Shown: positions 15,390 through 23,256 of the stretch, one piece after another
How the letters are laid out: each line of letters begins with the position of its first letter
Numbering within the stretch: position 1 is the stretch's first letter
Assembly: GCA_025358295.1 (NCBI GenBank)
Contig: JANYJY010000036.1
Span: 1 to 64,000, forward strand
Source: Gammaproteobacteria bacterium
GTDB lineage: Bacteria; Pseudomonadota; Gammaproteobacteria; Steroidobacterales; Steroidobacteraceae
DNA length: 64,000 nucleotides
Direction of reading: 5' to 3'
Program-made: the position numbers and the translations under genes
The notes under the pieces: generated by a model
Seen by the model: only the letters and a program-made list of their open reading frames with translations
Told to the model about the DNA's origin: nothing
Database searches by the model: none

Positions 15390-15865
15390 GGAGTGATGGT
15401 GACTGGCATGCCGATCGACGCCAGATCGTAGAGCTTCTGCATGTCGGCATTCTCCATGGCTATGCAACCTCGGGTCCCTGCGGAATCGAACTGAGTGCCC
15501 CGGCCGTGAATGTAGATTTCACCGCCGAGCGCTGTGTGTTGCGGCGGCATTTGCCGCGCGCCGACGGCGTCGATGATCTGCCGGTATTCTTCCGCGTCGA
15601 TCAGCCCTTCAGCCAGGCCGCGTGCTGCGTCTTGCGCATTGGGATAGCTGATGCATAGCGAGAGAAAGTGCTTGCTGCGGGGATTTTTCGCGCAAATATA
15701 AAAGTCCCCGATGGGCGTGGCTGCATCTCCCTCCAGCGATTTATGCTGCGCCGAATTTCGTCCCAGCGTAATGGCGTACCGTTGTTGCACTTCCGCGCCC
15801 GACAGCAACGTGAGCTCACGTGCCTGTTTGGCAATGACAATGCGCTGTTCAGGCGCTGCCGGCAT
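15386..15865 (-). CDS. L,D-transpeptidase (YkuD domain) protein
   Basis: A 159-residue single YkuD domain. The catalytic motif is intact: H in IYIHGRGTQFDSAGTRGC with the nucleophile cysteine in the final SAGTRGCIAM. These enzymes cross-link peptidoglycan or attach proteins to it in the periplasm, yet no signal peptide or membrane helix is visible here. The gene is the last of the his operon: its ATG lies inside the end of hisIE (17-base overlap). Either export is by an unusual route or the true start is different; the motif assignment itself is secure. Confidence 0.85.
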   Translation of the reverse strand: MPAAPEQRIVIAKQARELTLLSGAEVQQRYAITLGRNSAQHKSLEGDAATPIGDFYICAKNPRSKHFLSLCISYPNAQDAARGLAEGLIDAEEYRQIIDAVGARQMPPQHTALGGEIYIHGRGTQFDSAGTRGCIAMENADMQKLYDLASIGMPVTITP

Positions 15866-16475
15866 GGTGTTCCGCGTGACGCGCTTCGAGTTCGGCGGCG
15901 ACCTGGGATAAGGAGAGCCCCTTGACCTTGAGCAGGAGCAGGGTGTGATAGAAAAGGTCGGCAGCTTCGCCGATGATTTCGCCGTCGGATTGCGCCACGG
16001 CGGCGAGCGCCAGTTCCAGTCCTTCCTCTCCCACTTTTTGCGCGATCCGGCGGGTGCCCTGCGCCAACAGCTTGGCAGTGTAGCTGCCCGGCGGCCGGGT
16101 CGCGATTCGCTCTGCGATGACCTGTTCGAGTCGGCCCAGAAATGCGGCTGATTGTGCGGCTGATTGCGGCGCTGTCGCGCCCCAGCAGGTGGGTGTGCCG
16201 GTGTGGCAGGTCGGCCCCATGGGGTCCGCGAGGATCAGTAGAGTGTCGCCGTCGCAATCCGCAGCGATTTGTTTGACCAGGAGAAAGTGGCCCGAGGACT
16301 CGCCCTTGGTCCACAGGCGGTCTTTGCTGCGGCTCCAAAATGTGACCCGGCCGCTCGCCTGAGTGGCGGCCAGCGCCTCCCGATTCATATATCCCAGCAT
16401 GAGCACCGCGCCGCTGTTGGCGTCCTGAACGATGACGGGCAACAGGCCGTTGTCTTTATTCCAATCGATATTCAT
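15849..16475 (-). CDS. hisIE: Bifunctional phosphoribosyl-AMP cyclohydrolase / phosphoribosyl-ATP pyrophosphatase
   Basis: Second and third steps of histidine synthesis in one 208-residue protein. The HisI half (1-110) has GYMNREAL, TFWSRSK and the zinc-binding DCDGDTLL and CHTG segments. The HisE half (115-208) has the all-alpha pattern KVGEEGLELALAA and GEAADLFYHTLLLL with the metal-binding acidic residues. The ATG overlaps the hisF stop by one base (TGATG). The C-terminal codons overlap the downstream L,D-transpeptidase gene. Confidence 0.95.
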   Translation of the reverse strand: MNIDWNKDNGLLPVIVQDANSGAVLMLGYMNREALAATQASGRVTFWSRSKDRLWTKGESSGHFLLVKQIAADCDGDTLLILADPMGPTCHTGTPTCWGATAPQSAAQSAAFLGRLEQVIAERIATRPPGSYTAKLLAQGTRRIAQKVGEEGLELALAAVAQSDGEIIGEAADLFYHTLLLLKVKGLSLSQVAAELEARHAEHHAGSA

Positions 16476-17242
16476 CACGCTCGCACCTCGATGCCGTCGC
16501 CTCTGAGGCGGCATTTCAAGTTCGGAATGGGGATCTCGCCCGAGTGAAAAACGCTGGCCGCCAGCGCTGCGTCCACGTGAGCCGTTTGAAATACGTCGGT
16601 GAAATGTTCCATCGCGCCGGCGCCGCCCGAGGCGACCAAGGGGACGTGACACACCTCGCGTATGGCGCACAACTGCGCAATGTCGTAGCCGCGGCGCACC
16701 CCGTCGCTCGACATGCAGTTGAGCACGATCTCGCCCGCGCCGCGCCGTTGGGCCTCGATGACCCAGTCGATGGTGTTGCGCGAGGTGTCACGGCTGCGTG
16801 CGACGTCGCCGGTAAACTGTTGGACTCGATAGCCCTGCTCGACCGTTTGACTGTCCACGCCCACCACCACGCACTGCGCGCCGAATCGCCGGCTCAGGTC
16901 GTCGATCAAATCCGGATTCTCGAGCGCGGGTGAATTCACAGAGATCTTCTCAGCGCCGGAGGCCAATACGTCTTCGGCCTGCGCTACGGAGCGGATGCCG
17001 CCGGCAACGCAAAATGGGATGTCGAGAATGCGCGCCACGCGAGTGATCCAGGAGCGGTCCACGCCGCGCCCCTCGGGGCTCGCGGATATATCGTAGAACA
17101 CGAGTTCGTCGGCGCCTTCGTCACGATATCGGGCCGCGAGTTCCAGAATGTCGCCCACGACGCGATGGTCGCGAAAGCGCACGCCTTTGACGACCTGCCC
17201 GTCGCGCACGTCCAGGCAAGGGATTATGCGTTTGGCAAGAAT
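16475..17242 (-). CDS. hisF: Imidazole glycerol phosphate synthase, cyclase subunit (inferred ATT start)
   Basis: Works with HisH to make IGP and AICAR. The frame carries the complete HisF barrel, including [18 protein letters not shown] at the N-terminus (catalytic Asp in CLD), VGVD and the phosphate-binding GGAGAMEHF segment. There is no ATG, GTG or TTG in frame before CLD. The codon that aligns with the family's initiator Met is ATT at 17242-17240, nine bases after GAGGA. The next usable start, GTG at 17209, would remove the essential aspartate. I therefore infer an ATT initiation codon, giving 255 residues (E. coli 258). It overlaps the end of hisA by 19 bases. Confidence 0.9.
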
Positions 17243-17964
17243 GGGTGCAGTTCCTCGATTGGAATGAGCTCTTCGAGCAGCGCCTTGCCGCTGATGGCGG
17301 CCGCTGCCCCCGCGTCGGTGAGCGCGCGCAGATCCCGTGAGTCACGGATCCCGCCGGAGGCCTGCCATTGAATTCGGGGATAGAGCCGCACCGCCTCGCG
17401 ATACAACCCGACATTCGGTCCCGTCAATGCGCCGTCGCGGCCCACGTCCGTGCAAAGCACGTGTTTGAGTTGCGAGCGGCCGAAATTCTCCATGGCGTTC
17501 CACAGCGTCAGCGTGGATTGCCGCTGCCATCCGTGCGTGGCGACGCGCGGAATATCGGTCTCGTCCAGCCGTACGTCGAAAGCCAGAGTGATGCGTTCCG
17601 GACCGAAGTGATCGAGCCAGGTGATCACTTGTTCGACGTGAGTAATTGCGGCGCTGCCGATCACCACCCGGGCCACGCCAAGGTCCAGCATTCGAGTGAC
17701 CGCGGCGGTATCGCGCAGGCCGCCGCCCACTTGCAGCTTGACGGACCTCTGGCCGGCGAGCTGTGCAATGATGGCGCGGTTGTCGAGGCCGCCATCCTTC
17801 GCGCCGTCAAGGTCGACGACATGCAGCCAGTCGGCGCCCAGGCCGCGATACTTCTCCAGCAGCTCCGCTGCGTCCGGGGCGTAGCGGGTCTCCTTGGCGA
17901 AATCCCCTTGCAGCAGCCTCACGCAGTGTCCGGATTTCAGGTCGATGGCGGGGATGAGACGCAT
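17224..17964 (-). CDS. hisA: Phosphoribosylformimino-AICAR ribotide isomerase
   Basis: Fourth step of histidine synthesis. 246-residue TIM barrel starting [17 protein letters not shown] (catalytic Asp at residue 8), then [17 protein letters not shown] and, near the end, [15 protein letters not shown] with the second catalytic Asp, and ASGGIRD. The frame is open far upstream, but the ATG at 17964 is the family start and lies 16 bases after the hisH stop. The 3' end carries the ribosome site for hisF (GAGGA). Confidence 0.95.
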
Positions 17965-17980: not shown

Positions 17981-18583
17981 CTAGCGAATGGCCAGGAAAT
18001 TCTTGAGCAGACGCGCGCCCACGGCCGCCGAACGTTCAGGGTGAAATTGCGCGCCGTAGAAATTGCGCCACTGCACGCAGGCGCTGAAGTCGGCACCGTA
18101 GGCCGTGCTCGCCACCGTCGCGGCGCTGACGTCCAGAGCGAAGCTGTGCACGAAGTAGGCATAGTCGCCGTCTGTCAGTCCCGCCAGTAGCGCACAGGGC
18201 TTCAGTATGTCGAGGGTGTTCCATCCCATGTGAGGCACCGGCCGAGTCTTTGCCGGCGCAAAGCGGGCGGCCGCGCCGGGAATGATACCGAGGCAGCGGG
18301 CGTCGCCTTCCTGCGAGGCCTCGAACAACAATTGCATGCCCAAGCAAATGCCGAGCACGGGCTGCTGAAGAGTGGGAATCAAGGCGTCTAGGCCGCTCTG
18401 CCGCAGGCGCGCCATGCCGTCCGCAGCCGCGCCCACTCCGGGCAGAATGACATGGCTGGCCGCACGAATCTGCGCTGAGTCCGCGGACACCGTCGAGGCG
18501 ACATCGAGCCTTGCCAGCGCAAATTGCAGCGAGGCGATATTCGCGCCGCCGTTCGCAACGATGACGACCTGTGCCGGGTTCAC
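17981..18583 (-). CDS. hisH: Imidazole glycerol phosphate synthase, glutamine amidotransferase subunit
   Basis: Supplies ammonia from glutamine to HisF. 200 residues with the class I amidotransferase triad: Cys in GICLGMQLLFE, His and Glu in GAQFHPERS; oxyanion-region LPGVGA is present. The start is GTG, overlapping the hisB stop by 4 bases (GTGA). Confidence 0.95.
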   Translation of the reverse strand: MNPAQVVIVANGGANIASLQFALARLDVASTVSADSAQIRAASHVILPGVGAAADGMARLRQSGLDALIPTLQQPVLGICLGMQLLFEASQEGDARCLGIIPGAAARFAPAKTRPVPHMGWNTLDILKPCALLAGLTDGDYAYFVHSFALDVSAATVASTAYGADFSACVQWRNFYGAQFHPERSAAVGARLLKNFLAIR

Positions 18584-19656
18584 AGCGCCCCTTTGGTGCT
18601 CGGCAGGTCATGGCCCTCGAGCCGGATGGCCTGGCGCAGGCTTCGGCCCAGGCCTTTGAAGCAGGATTCGATCATGTGATGGGTATTCTCGCCGCGCACG
18701 CTGAGGTGCAGCGCGGCGCCCAGCGATTCGGCGAATGAACGGAAGAAATGCGGCACCAGTTCGGTGGGAAGCTCGCCGATTCGCTCGCGATTGAACTGTC
18801 CTTGCCATACGAAGTACGGACGCCCCGAGATGTCGAGTGCGATCTGCGCCTCGGCCTCGTCCATGGCGAGCAGAAAGCCGTAGCGTGCGATGCCGCGCTT
18901 GTCGCCGAGGGCCTCGCGCACGGCGGCGCCCAGCGCCAAGGCGCAATCCTCGACCGTGTGATGTTCATCGATCTGCAGATCGCCGCTGCAGCGAAGATCG
19001 AGCGCGAAGCCGCCGTGCCTGGCCACTTGTTCCAGCATGTGATCGAAGAACCCTAGGCCAGTGACGATGGTGCTCGGGCCTTCGCGCGACAGGTCGATAT
19101 CGACATGAATGTCGGTTTCCTTGGTCTTGCGATGCACATGTGCGCGCCGTGCCTCGCCGAGAATGCGCCGCGTGATGGCGGGCCAGGTCTGCGGCGCCGC
19201 GCCGCCCAGAGTGATCCGCAAGCCCTGTACGCCCAAGTTCACCGCGAATTCCATATCCGTATCGCGATCGCCGATCATGTAGCTGCGCGCCCGGTCGATG
19301 GGGTGCGCAGCAAGATAGTCCCGTACCATGCCGATGCTGGGCTTGCGGCAGCCGCAGTCCTCGCGTTTAAAGTGCGGGCAGATGCACACGGCATCGAAAT
19401 TGATTCCCTGGGAGGCCAGCAACTCCATGATGAATGTGTGGGCGCGTTCGAATTTCTCCTGCGGAAAGGCGGGCGTGCCCAGTCCGTCCTGATTCGTGAC
19501 CATGACAAAGGCGAAGCCGGCGGCCTTCAGTTCGAGCAACGCCGGTACCACGCCGGGCATCAGCCGGACTTTGTCCAGGCTGTCGATCTGCTCGTCCGGC
19601 GTTTCCTCATTGAGGGTGCCGTCGCGATCCAGGAACAAAGTTCGTGCGCCGCTCAT
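18580..19656 (-). CDS. hisB: Bifunctional histidinol-phosphatase / imidazoleglycerol-phosphate dehydratase
   Basis: Seventh and ninth steps of the pathway in one 358-residue protein, the enterobacterial/gamma-type fusion. Residues 1-165 are the HAD phosphatase: LFLDRDGTLNEE with nucleophile Asp, VTNQDGLG, and a CPHFKREDCGCRKP zinc site. Residues 167-358 are the dehydratase with the duplicated metal motifs FFDHMLEQVARHG, DEHHTVED, and the ENTHHMIE segment. The ATG overlaps the hisC stop by 4 bases. Confidence 0.95.
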   Translation of the reverse strand: MSGARTLFLDRDGTLNEETPDEQIDSLDKVRLMPGVVPALLELKAAGFAFVMVTNQDGLGTPAFPQEKFERAHTFIMELLASQGINFDAVCICPHFKREDCGCRKPSIGMVRDYLAAHPIDRARSYMIGDRDTDMEFAVNLGVQGLRITLGGAAPQTWPAITRRILGEARRAHVHRKTKETDIHVDIDLSREGPSTIVTGLGFFDHMLEQVARHGGFALDLRCSGDLQIDEHHTVEDCALALGAAVREALGDKRGIARYGFLLAMDEAEAQIALDISGRPYFVWQGQFNRERIGELPTELVPHFFRSFAESLGAALHLSVRGENTHHMIESCFKGLGRSLRQAIRLEGHDLPSTKGAL

Positions 19657-20714
19657 GTTGATCCTATGCAGTGAAGTAAGGCGTCGTTCTGCGCCCGGCT
19701 GCCCACCGAGATGCGCAAGGAACGCGGCAGGGTGGGGTAGGCGCGCAGGTCCCGGACGATCATGCCGCCCGCCAAAGTGCTGCTCAGGAAGCGGTCTATA
19801 TCGAGGCAATCGATGAGCAGGAAATTCGCATTGCTCGGCCAGACCTTGGCGACCAGGGGTGATGCCGCGAGACCCTTGCTCAAGTAATCGCGCTCCGCCA
19901 GCAATCCTTCCAGTCGACCTCGTGAGGCTGCAAGCTCAGCAGGATCCAGCGCCCGCAAGGCCGCCTCCACTGTCGGTTGCGCCAAGGCGTAGGGCGGAAT
20001 CACCCGCTTCGCCAATTCGATGAGCCTGGGGTGCGCCAGCAATGCGCCGACCCGCGCACCGGCCAAGGCGTGCGCTTTGGACAGAGTGCGAAGTATGGCC
20101 AGCGTCGGGAAACGGTCCAGCCAGCGCGTCAAACTCGCGCAACGGGACCACTCTATGTAGGCCTCGTCGATGACGACGATGGCCTTGCCCTCGAGCGCCC
20201 GGCAGATCGTTTCGAGCGCTTCGGTATCGAGCATATTGGCCGTAGGGTTGTTCGGCGAGCATAGATACACAAGTTTGACATGCGGCTGCCATGCGCCCAA
20301 GAGCTGCTCCGGATCGACGGCCCAGCCGCGCGCGGGGTCGAGCGGAACCTCGATGACGTCGGCGCCCTGAATGTGCGCGGCCACTTGGTACATGCCGAAG
20401 GTCGGTGCGCATTGCAAAATGGCGTCGGTGCCGGCGCGCAAATAGATGCGCGATAGCAGATCGATGGCTTCATCTCCGCCTCGGGTGGCGAGTATCGCGG
20501 CTGCCGGAACCTCGTACAGCGCGGCCATGCGCTCGATCAGCGCGTGGGGTTGAGGTTCGGGGTAGCGATTCAAGCCTGCGTTGGTGGTATCGCCCGTGGG
20601 CCGCCATGGCGCTTCGTTGGCGTGCAGACGCGTCAGCGACGGTCTCCAGGCCGCGTGTGAGTAGGGTTTGAGATTGACGATCTCGGGCCTGGCGAGAGTG
20701 ACGACGGCATTCAT
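19653..20714 (-). CDS. hisC: Histidinol-phosphate aminotransferase
   Basis: PLP enzyme that transaminates imidazole-acetol phosphate. 353 residues, fold-type I: LHANEAPW, NRYPEPQP, CSPNNPTANM, VIDEAYIEW and the PLP-lysine in LRTLSKAHALAGARVG. The frame extends upstream to 21008 but the ATG at 20714 overlaps the hisD stop (ATGA) and gives the normal length. Confidence 0.95.
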   Translation of the reverse strand: MNAVVTLARPEIVNLKPYSHAAWRPSLTRLHANEAPWRPTGDTTNAGLNRYPEPQPHALIERMAALYEVPAAAILATRGGDEAIDLLSRIYLRAGTDAILQCAPTFGMYQVAAHIQGADVIEVPLDPARGWAVDPEQLLGAWQPHVKLVYLCSPNNPTANMLDTEALETICRALEGKAIVVIDEAYIEWSRCASLTRWLDRFPTLAILRTLSKAHALAGARVGALLAHPRLIELAKRVIPPYALAQPTVEAALRALDPAELAASRGRLEGLLAERDYLSKGLAASPLVAKVWPSNANFLLIDCLDIDRFLSSTLAGGMIVRDLRAYPTLPRSLRISVGSRAQNDALLHCIGST

Positions 20715-22021
20715 CGCCGGGCTCCGGCCAGCGCCGCAAGACGAACGCTGACCGCCGCCGCATGTGCATCGAGTCCTTCGAGATTCGCAAGCACTTGCGC
20801 CGTCGGTCCTAAATCCTCGAGCCCGCCGGGCGTCAGCTCTTGGACCGTGATGCGCTTTTGAAAGTCCTCCAGCGACAGGCCGCTGTGGGCTTTGGCATAG
20901 CCATAGGTGGGCAGCGTATGGTTGGGCCCGCTGCAATAGTCGCCCACCGATTCCGGCGACCAATGTCCCAGGAATACGGCACCCGCGGCGCTGACCCGGG
21001 GCAGCCATCGACGCGGCTCGCGTACTTCGAGCAATAGATGCTCGGGTGCATAGTCGTTGGCGATATGGATTGCAGCGTCGAGAGTATCGACGATCAGCAA
21101 TCTGATATGCGGTATGGACTTCGCCAGCACGCTGCTGCGCGTGAGGCTTTTGGCCTGAGCCTTGACTTGTCGCACGACCTCTTCGGCCAAGGATGCAGAC
21201 GTCGTCACGAGTAGCGATTGCGCCTCGGGACTATGTTCCGCTTGCGCGAGCAGATCGGCGGCGACGAACTCGGCGCGAGCGCTGTCGTCCGCAATCACCA
21301 TGACTTCGGTGACGCCCGCGGGAAGGTCCGCCGCCGCACCCTCGGCGTCTTGGGCGACCAGCATCTTGGCGGCGGTCACATACGCATTGCCGGGCCCAAA
21401 CAGCTTGTTGCACTTCGGGATGGTCGCCGTGCCGTAGGCCATGGCAGCGATGGCTTGAGCGCCGCCGGCCTTGAACACCTGGCTGATGCCCGAGCGGCGC
21501 GCGGCGACCAGCACGGCGGGATCCGCAGCTCCGTTACGGGCGGGAGGCGTGCACATCACGCGCACGGGGCAACCCGCGATGGCGGCGGGAACGGCCAGCA
21601 TGACGGCCGTGGAGGGCAGGGGAGCGGAGCCCGCGGGGACATACAGTCCGACTGCCCGGATGGGGACACTGTAACGCTCGCACACCACGCCGGGCGCCGT
21701 CTCGACGCGTAAGGGCGCAGCCCCCTGTGCGGCATGAAAGCGTCGAACATTAACGATGGCCCGCTCGATTGCCGCCGTTTGAGCGCTGCTCAAGGTGCGC
21801 TCGGCCGCCGCAAATTCCTCGGGCGACACGGCCAGCGAGTCGGGTCGCACCGCGTCGTATTTCTCGGTTAGAGCCAAGACTGCGGCGTCGCCGTCGCGGC
21901 GCACGGCATCAATGATGCCTTGCGCGGCCTCCCGAGTTGCCGCGGCTTCGAGCTGAGCAGGGCGCTGCAGGGCCTGCGCACGCTGCACCGTGGACAGGGA
22001 GTTCCAATCGAGAATGCGCAT
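20711..22021 (-). CDS. hisD: Histidinol dehydrogenase
   Basis: Last two oxidations of histidine synthesis, NAD+ and Zn2+ dependent. 436 residues (E. coli 434), with YVPAGSAPLPSTAVM, the FGPGNAYVTAAK motif, DLPAGVTEVMVIAD, and AQAEHSPEAQ with the zinc/catalytic residues, then DYCSGPNHTLPT. The ATG at 22021 lies 13 bases after the hisG stop. Confidence 0.95.
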   Translation of the reverse strand: MRILDWNSLSTVQRAQALQRPAQLEAAATREAAQGIIDAVRRDGDAAVLALTEKYDAVRPDSLAVSPEEFAAAERTLSSAQTAAIERAIVNVRRFHAAQGAAPLRVETAPGVVCERYSVPIRAVGLYVPAGSAPLPSTAVMLAVPAAIAGCPVRVMCTPPARNGAADPAVLVAARRSGISQVFKAGGAQAIAAMAYGTATIPKCNKLFGPGNAYVTAAKMLVAQDAEGAAADLPAGVTEVMVIADDSARAEFVAADLLAQAEHSPEAQSLLVTTSASLAEEVVRQVKAQAKSLTRSSVLAKSIPHIRLLIVDTLDAAIHIANDYAPEHLLLEVREPRRWLPRVSAAGAVFLGHWSPESVGDYCSGPNHTLPTYGYAKAHSGLSLEDFQKRITVQELTPGGLEDLGPTAQVLANLEGLDAHAAAVSVRLAALAGARR

Positions 22022-22034
22022 TGTTCGACTGAGC

Positions 22035-22952
22035 CTAGGCCAGCATTTTTTCGACGGGAAGTACCAGCACTGACGAGGCGCCGACACCCTTCAGTTCCTC
22101 GAGTGTTTCCCAAAAGACGTTTTCGCGGCATACCGCGTGCACCGCCACCCGATCGCCGCGGCCTTCGAGAGGAATGACGGTCGGCGCTTCGCTGCCGGGC
22201 AGCAGCTTGACGATGGCCGGCAGCGCGGAGCGCGGCGCATGCAGCATGATGTACTTACTGCCCTTGACCTGTTCGACGCCATCGATGCGCATCAGCAGAC
22301 GCCGGGTCCACTCCTGCTTTTCCGGAGCGATCGGCACGGGCGTACGGATCAGCACCGCCTGGCTGTCCAGCACCGTTTCGGCCAGCCGCAAATGATTCGC
22401 GGCCAGAGTGGAACCGGTCGACACCAGATCGCAGATCAAATCCGCCCGTCCGAGCCGCGGGGCAATCTCCACCGAGCCGGAGAGCACCACCACTTCCGCG
22501 GTGATGCCGTGATCGGCGAGGAAACGTCCCAGGATATGCGGATACGTGGTCGCAATGCGCTTGCCCTGAAGGGATTGGGCGCCGCGATACTCGAATCCGT
22601 CGGGCACCGCGATACACAACCTACAGCGGCCGAAATCCAGGACCTGCACCGTTTCAAACAGCGGTGCAATCGACCGTGCAGCGAACGCCAGGCGCTTCTC
22701 CTGGACCACGTTCAATCCGACCAACCCCAAATCGCAGACATCCTCTTGCACCAGATCGGGAATGTCGTCGTCGCGCACGAACAGTACGTCGAGCGGCATA
22801 TTCTCGCCGTAGCACATGAGCTGGTCCTTACCGCGGCTGTACTTCAGGCCGCAGCGCGACAGCAAGTCGAGCGAGGCATCGGTGAGCCTGCCGCTTTTTT
22901 GCACGGCGATCTTCAGGCGCATGGAGTCGGGAGTATTTATATCGCTAGCCAT
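22035..22952 (-). CDS. hisG: ATP phosphoribosyltransferase (long form)
   Basis: Commits PRPP and ATP to histidine synthesis. 305 residues: the two-lobed catalytic part (KIAVQKSGRLTDAS, DLGLVGLNV, the PRPP-binding LICDLVSTGSTLAANHLR) plus a C-terminal ACT-like regulatory domain of about 75 residues, which binds histidine in the long form, so no HisZ is needed. The ATG overlaps the end of the upstream TrpR-like regulator gene by 8 bases, showing that the regulator heads the operon. Confidence 0.95.
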   Translation of the reverse strand: MASDINTPDSMRLKIAVQKSGRLTDASLDLLSRCGLKYSRGKDQLMCYGENMPLDVLFVRDDDIPDLVQEDVCDLGLVGLNVVQEKRLAFAARSIAPLFETVQVLDFGRCRLCIAVPDGFEYRGAQSLQGKRIATTYPHILGRFLADHGITAEVVVLSGSVEIAPRLGRADLICDLVSTGSTLAANHLRLAETVLDSQAVLIRTPVPIAPEKQEWTRRLLMRIDGVEQVKGSKYIMLHAPRSALPAIVKLLPGSEAPTVIPLEGRGDRVAVHAVCRENVFWETLEELKGVGASSVLVLPVEKMLA

Positions 22953-23256
22953 TGAGTTTCAACCGTTCGGTCACTGCGCGGTAGCCGCCGTTTCCAGAGG
23001 TGAGATACCGGGCGACGCGGCCGACGGTGGTGACGCTGACTCCCGTTTGCTTGTGAATCTCCCGATAGGGCAGCCCGCGCTCCAGCAGCTCCACCACGGC
23101 CCAACGGTCCGCCATCGCCTGCAATTCCGCCGGCGTGCACAAATCGCGGAAAAAACTGCGGCATTCTTCGAGACTGCGTAGCGCGAGTATGGCCGTGCAG
23201 AGTGCACGTTCGTGCTGTTGCTCCTGGCGTACGGTGACGGGTCGATTGGTTTTCAT
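22945..23256 (-). CDS. TrpR-family (YerC/YecD-like) repressor, likely histidine operon regulator
   Basis: A 103-residue all-helical protein of the Trp-repressor fold: CTPAELQAMADRWAVVELL, then a helix-turn-helix in LPYREIHKQTGVSVTTVGRVARYL, ending SGNGGYRAV. This is the YerC/YecD branch, not tryptophan TrpR itself. It is the first gene of the his operon (8-base overlap with hisG) and a large palindrome lies 37 bases upstream, so it probably represses its own operon with histidine as co-repressor. The ligand is inferred from context; in relatives a TrpR-type HisR has been proposed. Confidence 0.82.
   Translation of the reverse strand: MKTNRPVTVRQEQQHERALCTAILALRSLEECRSFFRDLCTPAELQAMADRWAVVELLERGLPYREIHKQTGVSVTTVGRVARYLTSGNGGYRAVTERLKLNG

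Follow-up and report, generated by a model that had tools for sequence, protein, structure and literature searches.

In a clade of gammaproteobacteria, the histidine biosynthesis gene hisF appears to start at AUU or AUA, probably because the bases of its start codon also encode the end of HisA, a weak start then being the compromise between two genes. The gene is described here from the window, i.e., the whole stretch of 64,000 nucleotides that was analysed, and from related loci.

The hisF gene and its start in the window

The his genes form a set on the minus strand of the window, in the order hisG-hisD-hisC-hisB-hisH-hisA-hisF-hisIE (Table 1). The profile match of hisB begins at residue 56, placing its true start inside the open frame 18580..19809, and the ATG of hisIE and the TGA of hisF have base A 16475 in common. 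One full hisF gene was found in the genome, the two other profile matches being hisA and a weak one on C29; with one hisF and one hisGDCBHAFIE set, the ATT gene would have to serve histidine synthesis. A small protein of the Trp-repressor family (PF01371, 93 bits) is encoded directly upstream of hisG (22945-23256, minus strand) and might regulate the operon. An L,D-transpeptidase gene (YkuD, PF03734; 15386-15865, minus strand) directly follows hisIE, and a MatE efflux transporter gene (PF01554; 13708-15117, plus strand) lies on the strand opposite to the his genes.

Table 1. Coordinates of the his genes and of the features around the hisF start in the window.
Feature	Position	Strand	Remarks
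hisIE	15849..16475	-	NF002747
hisF, imidazole glycerol phosphate synthase cyclase subunit	16475..17242	-	255 codons + TGA, ATT start
hisA/hisF overlap, 19 bases	17224..17242	-	read from sequence
hisA, ProFAR isomerase	17224..17964	-	ATG start, TAA stop; TIGR00007, 230.1 vs cut-off 228.95
ATT start codon of hisF	17240..17242	-	read from sequence
Shine-Dalgarno-like GAGGA	17252..17256	-	nine bases before ATT; also codes HisA Glu-Glu
hisH, glutaminase partner of HisF	17981..18583	-	TIGR01855; GTG start in ORF list
hisB, bifunctional, open frame	18580..19809	-	NF003937
hisC, open frame	19653..21008	-	TIGR01141, match from residue 107
hisD, open frame	20711..22087	-	TIGR00069
hisG	22035..22952	-	TIGR00070

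Around the start of hisF the minus strand reads ...GAGGAACTGCACCC ATT CTT GCC AAA CGC ATA ATC CCT TGC CTG GAC GTG... The first base of the ATT (17242) is also the third base of the HisA Pro codon CCA (17244-17242), and its second and third bases (17241-17240) are the first two of the HisA Phe242 codon TTC (17241-17239). The GAC of hisF at 17212-17210 encodes Asp11, presumably the catalytic residue as in T. maritima HisF, and is followed at once by the GTG at 17209-17207, the first NTG codon of the gene. A TGA closes the frame upstream of the ATT, and among the 33 open codons between the two, ATG, GTG, TTG, CTG, ATT, ATC and ATA are all absent. An ORF list restricted to ATG, GTG and TTG has hisF begin at 17209, giving 244 aa, and the first strand of HisF and Asp11 are present only with initiation at the ATT or upstream of it.

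Translated from the ATT, the protein gives a full-length match to the equivalog profile TIGR00735 over its curated cut-off (323 bits, cut-off 294.55; profile positions 2-254 of 254), with the match running through residues 2-254, and it aligns from residue 2 to solved HisF chains, e.g., 4evz and 2wjz. The first-pass annotation had put the family start on this ATT, and had claimed that no in-frame ATG, GTG or TTG precedes the Asp (which a start at GTG 17209 would drop), that GAGGA lies nine bases upstream and that hisA overlaps by 19 bases. Direct reading, the TIGR00735 match and the scan of the 33-codon upstream frame bear out each of these points, the GAGGA being read at 17256-17252 and the overlap at 17242-17224, with the hisA stop TAA at 17226-17224.

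Start codons of hisF among relatives

Genomes of the genus (23), family (150), order (97) and class (229) were searched for hisF, along with the best 80 hisF loci of named public contigs and a phylum draw of 398 genomes (67 matches). The genus, family, order, class and phylum draws overlap, and removal of duplicates by identical hisF DNA left 271 distinct loci, to which the phylum draw adds 27 that were read separately. Those read are a part of the 127 family-draw, 38 class-draw and 67 phylum-draw matches: 100 distinct loci of family f1, all 74 order matches outside f1 (before duplicate removal) and, outside the order, 26 class-draw and 27 phylum-draw loci. L206 was left out, as its alignment starts at residue 19.

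At the homologous codon the 271 loci have ATT (139), ATA (15), ATG (84), GTG (15) or another codon (18). In fourteen of these 18 the codon just before the aligned one is ATG, which makes the N-terminus one residue longer, and in the remaining four (L078, L285, L287, L299) hisF starts elsewhere. Aligning the start in related genomes had been proposed in the first-pass annotation; done here, it shows ATT or ATA to be conserved in 154 of the 271 loci. Within the genus, ATT is found in 18 of the 19 distinct loci read (L001, L004-L018, L020, L021). The sole exception, L019, has ATG (L019:202-204) with HisA Cys then Ser, and is a natural revertant.

Ten of the fifteen coded families with hisF read, all of one gammaproteobacterial order, have ATT or ATA (f1, f3, f4, f5, f6, f7, f11, f13, f15 and f16). 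Neither codon was seen in the loci read from f2, f8, f9, f12 and f14 of the same order, and the search of f10, also of this order, gave no hisF match. Outside the order 53 coded loci were read, 26 from the class draw and 27 from the phylum draw, and neither codon occurs in any of them; the 27 of the phylum draw have ATG (26) or GTG (1). Eighteen named ATT/ATA loci belong to MAGs labelled in their records as Steroidobacteraceae, Chromatiales, Gammaproteobacteria, Proteobacteria and, once, Rheinheimera. ATT is also present on seven single-contig genomes or chromosomes (L046, L153, L156, L231, L250, L256, L278).

An AUH start without an NTG alternative is found in the window's hisF and in most relatives. 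Among the 154 ATT/ATA loci, 79 have no ATG, GTG or TTG anywhere in the upstream open frame, and 148 have no NTG in codons 2-11. An upstream NTG within 20 codons occurs in only two (L177, L278), many loci having the nearest one at -42, -51 or -71 (27, 17 and 16 of 154), and an in-frame stop lies within five codons upstream in 31 of the 153 loci where that stop was found. Counting against a start by exclusion are the six of 154 loci with an NTG in codons 2-11, and the 14 of 154 with another in-frame CTG or ATH codon within ten codons upstream. Exclusion and conservation together strongly support initiation at the ATT, and the first residue of HisF would then be fMet.

The overlap with hisA

In all ATT/ATA loci hisF starts inside hisA, with overlaps of 7 to 55 bases. 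The length is 19 bases in 123 of the 154, and 7 (L241), 31, 37, 52 and 55 also occur. The hisA frame passes its usual TAA in 30 of the 154 (overlaps of 31, 37, 52 or 55 bases), adding 4 to 12 residues to HisA, and hisF keeps ATT or ATA in these run-on loci (L117, L126, L130, L177 and others), examples of which have ATC or ATT as hisF codon 6 instead of ATA.

Four of the hisA/hisF overlaps lie in another frame. The 223 in the main frame show five pairings of HisA residue and hisF start, namely Phe/ATT (139), Tyr/ATA (15), Cys/ATG (54), Cys/GTG (13) and Trp/ATG (2), and no other; this table is partly forced by the genetic code, the informative parts being the invariance of base 1, the lack of ATC and the loci without overlap. 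ATC, which would give HisA Ser, is found at none of the 154 starts.

Base 1 of the hisF start is the wobble base of a HisA codon, and it is A in all 154 overlaps with HisA Phe or Tyr. In 138 of these it falls at a four-fold site of HisA, where the expectation from these loci is 13.1 A (relatedness ignored). The HisA codons that end at this base are CCA, TCA, CAA, CGA, GCA, ACA, AAA, GAA and TTA, for nine different residues. On the HisF tree, base 1 changes 0 times over 153 tips, while the HisA residue to which it belongs changes at least 33 times. By comparison, the 25 other sites within the last 39 HisA codons that are four-fold in at least 100 rows change between 16 and 60 times each. The simplest explanation of the frozen base 1 is that hisF needs an A-initial codon in its own frame.

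Among the 67 loci of the Cys type, HisA ends at that Cys in 34 and a Trp adjoins it in 30, so that in most the aromatic side chain seems to have moved by one position or the tail to have been dropped. Neither is the case in L019 (Cys-Ser), L057 (Cys-Leu) and L294 (Cys-Gln). The five alignments of the window's HisA to solved structures that were shown end at residue 238, before the site of Phe242.

The tree was built with FastTree from HisF without its first 12 residues and has 252 rows; 19 of the 271 were omitted, namely 18 distant HisF of less than 52% identity and L301, which is cut by a contig end. By parsimony the ATT/ATA state changes to or from all others 10 times, and ATT and ATA (Phe and Tyr) interchange about ten times. 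Rooted by choice on the E. coli row, the reconstruction has the state gained twice, in clades of 170 and 12 tips, and lost eight times, a polarity that depends on the imposed root, as the number of changes alone does not settle direction. Loss is seen in two loci with a Trp overlap, in the L063 group (two separated loci and three with a Cys overlap), in L232, in two clades of nine members each, one with GTG and HisA Cys and the other with separated genes, and in L131, L019 and L179.

In 13 loci of the main ATT clade hisF lies outside hisA, the outcome of four ATT losses, and all 13 have ATG or GTG; the start thus does not stay weak when it is free of the coding link to hisA. The aligned HisA site in the same 13 loci is W (8), F (3) or Y (2). 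Of the 38 non-overlapping rows overall, 25 were aligned (HisF of at least 52% identity); the aromatic residue is missing at the site in nine of these 25 HisA rows, all nine outside the main clade. Escape to an NTG start with HisA Cys is seen in L019, L179, three loci of the L063 group and the nine-member GTG clade (Cys-Trp), so this precise position does not strictly require an aromatic residue.

The first-pass annotation had linked the ATT start to hisA through the 19-base overlap. The link itself stands, and looks mainly like one of coding, the same bases encoding the HisA aromatic residue, but the length of 19 bases is not essential. Under the proposed compromise, selection on HisA would keep Phe or Tyr near the C-terminus, making bases 2 and 3 of the start TT or TA, and selection on hisF would keep A at base 1, AUU and AUA being presumably the codons best usable by initiator tRNA among NUU and NUA. 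The weak start would then be what two coding demands allow. Initiation with fMet-tRNA is presumed to use the GAGGA(G) that is conserved within hisA, perhaps with help from ribosomes that pass through or finish hisA.

Apart from its weak codon, this site resembles an ordinary initiation site. GGA stands at a spacing of nine in 141 of the 154 ATT/ATA loci, and a stronger Shine-Dalgarno sequence as compensation is not seen, the mean being -8.1 kcal/mol in ATT/ATA loci versus -8.7 kcal/mol in ATG loci. In the available portion of one source, ATT has about 0.3% of the efficiency of ATG in E. coli (PMC10666635, citing Hecht 2017), which makes a need for help at the hisF start plausible; such a figure is difficult to reconcile with an enzyme subunit that has to keep pace with HisH, unless there is help from context or coupling. 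The abstract of the same paper gives reinitiation coupling as almost abolished at an intergenic distance of about 20 nt (PMC10666635); with reinitiation so local, coupling is uncertain for a start that precedes the end of the hisA stop by 7-55 bases.

Comparison with infC and the rival explanations

The start of infC was read in the window's family, 26 of 30 fetched loci (L302-L331) being readable and L311, L323, L325 and L330 not. The apparent starts are ATC (13), ATA (9) and ATT (4), and in none of the 26 does an NTG or CTG separate the upstream stop from the conserved body, a pattern that suggests that these bacteria are able to initiate at AUH. In 25 of the 26 the first ATH is the second codon after the in-frame stop and a GGAGG lies within the 14 bases that end with this stop; ATC is the commonest start. 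The free choice among AUU, AUC and AUA that infC displays in the family is not found in hisF, where ATC is absent from the 154 loci against 13 of 26 for infC (Fisher p 5e-13, relatedness ignored), which argues that regulation does not pick the hisF codon.

A profile search found IF3_C in 52 of 60 family genomes. IF3_N, IF3_C and ribosomal protein L20 were not found in the window's own assembly (97.5% complete, 74 contigs). Ribosomal protein L20 is encoded near infC, and the joint absence of IF3 and L20 is most likely an assembly gap, i.e., one missing stretch. Loss of IF3 as the reason for AUU use was rejected, since L20 is missing too and IF3_C is present in the three other genus genomes searched (G006, G008, G018).

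The hisA-hisF junction of E. coli type (L099) resembles that of the window in its 19-base overlap, in its frame and in a Shine-Dalgarno-like GGAGG in the same place, but differs in having an ATG start with HisA Cys then Trp (...ACWQNA), where the window has ATT and HisA Phe. The pcnB gene of E. coli has an AUU start, and in this hisF is similar, as an AUU start outside infC; the pcnB start is not known to be part of a gene overlap. Like infC, hisF has an AUH start over a wide taxonomic distance, and tools limited to ATG, GTG and TTG miss both. The infC codon, unlike that of hisF, serves autoregulation by its own product and may be ATC, ATA or ATT in the family, whereas hisF is a metabolic gene without ATC and its codon tracks the HisA residue.

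According to part of a published account, infC starts with ATT in E. coli and ATC in Streptomyces, and IF3 repression of non-canonical starts is described for E. coli infC and demonstrated for Streptomyces sigR, which starts with GTC in 32 of 34 cases across the genus (PMC5472188). In that account sigR is, like hisF, an operon gene with a non-canonical start that is conserved, in its case across a genus, and misannotated; unlike hisF it is repressed by IF3 and needs the GTC for regulation, and the part concerned mentions no upstream overlap that would force the codon (PMC5472188).

An explanation by regulation would have AUU/AUA kept for IF3 repression as in infC, which would make the level of HisF depend on initiation factors or the state of the ribosomes, or, as the first-pass annotation suggested, to hold HisF below HisH. 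IF3 repression of the E. coli infC and Streptomyces sigR starts (PMC5472188, in part), the IF3_C found in 52 of 60 family genomes, the AUH starts of the 26 readable infC loci and the persistence of ATT/ATA over ten coded families are all compatible with it. If only weakness counted, however, ATC should do, as it does in infC, and hisF has it in 0 of 154; outside the overlap, moreover, all 13 main-clade loci have ATG or GTG. Nor is a feedback loop of the infC type obvious, HisF not being an initiation factor, and regulation as the reason for the codon is considered improbable. Overprinting on hisA is preferred to it.

Far less probable still is that hisF is not begun at the ATT at all, but is fused to hisA by a frameshift or started upstream inside hisA. 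The open frame of 33 codons in the window would permit this, as would the upstream NTG that many relatives have nearest at -42, -51 or -71, but a stop within five codons in 31 of 153 loci, and the lack of any upstream NTG in 79 of 154, go against an upstream start. Against a frameshift are the variation of codon 4 (AAA, AAG, CGC, CGA, AGG, AGA, CAG), with no slippery motif evident, and the overlap of only seven bases in L241, and neither version accounts for the frozen A at base 1. An ATG turned into ATT by sequencing or assembly error, which together with an indel had been raised in the first-pass annotation, might be imagined for one assembly of 74 contigs and 97.5% completeness; with 139 distinct loci carrying ATT, seven of them on single-contig genomes or chromosomes, the chance is negligible, and conservation of the ATT rules such an error out.

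AUU starts were already known, and a search of the literature, mostly of open-access papers, gave no report of an ATT start for hisF; a metabolic gene with such a start, apparently imposed by an overlap and conserved through much of an order, is seemingly new. It offers a natural example of conflict between overlapping genes over three shared bases, with a weak start as the result, and raises the question of how a codon of about 0.3% of the strength of ATG (E. coli; PMC10666635, in part) feeds an essential pathway. Gene finders limited to ATG, GTG and TTG are predicted to cut the first eleven residues, Asp11 included, from many HisF proteins of the clade, a cut observed in the ORF list of the window. 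That the histidine pathway is wired to IF3 and initiation fidelity, as a by-product of the overlap-forced AUU/AUA start, is doubtful; if it were true, HisF output would rise when IF3 is scarce, a metabolic gene would be subject to the type of initiation-codon control known from infC and sigR, and a large part of a bacterial order would for a very long time have made an essential enzyme from AUU or AUA.
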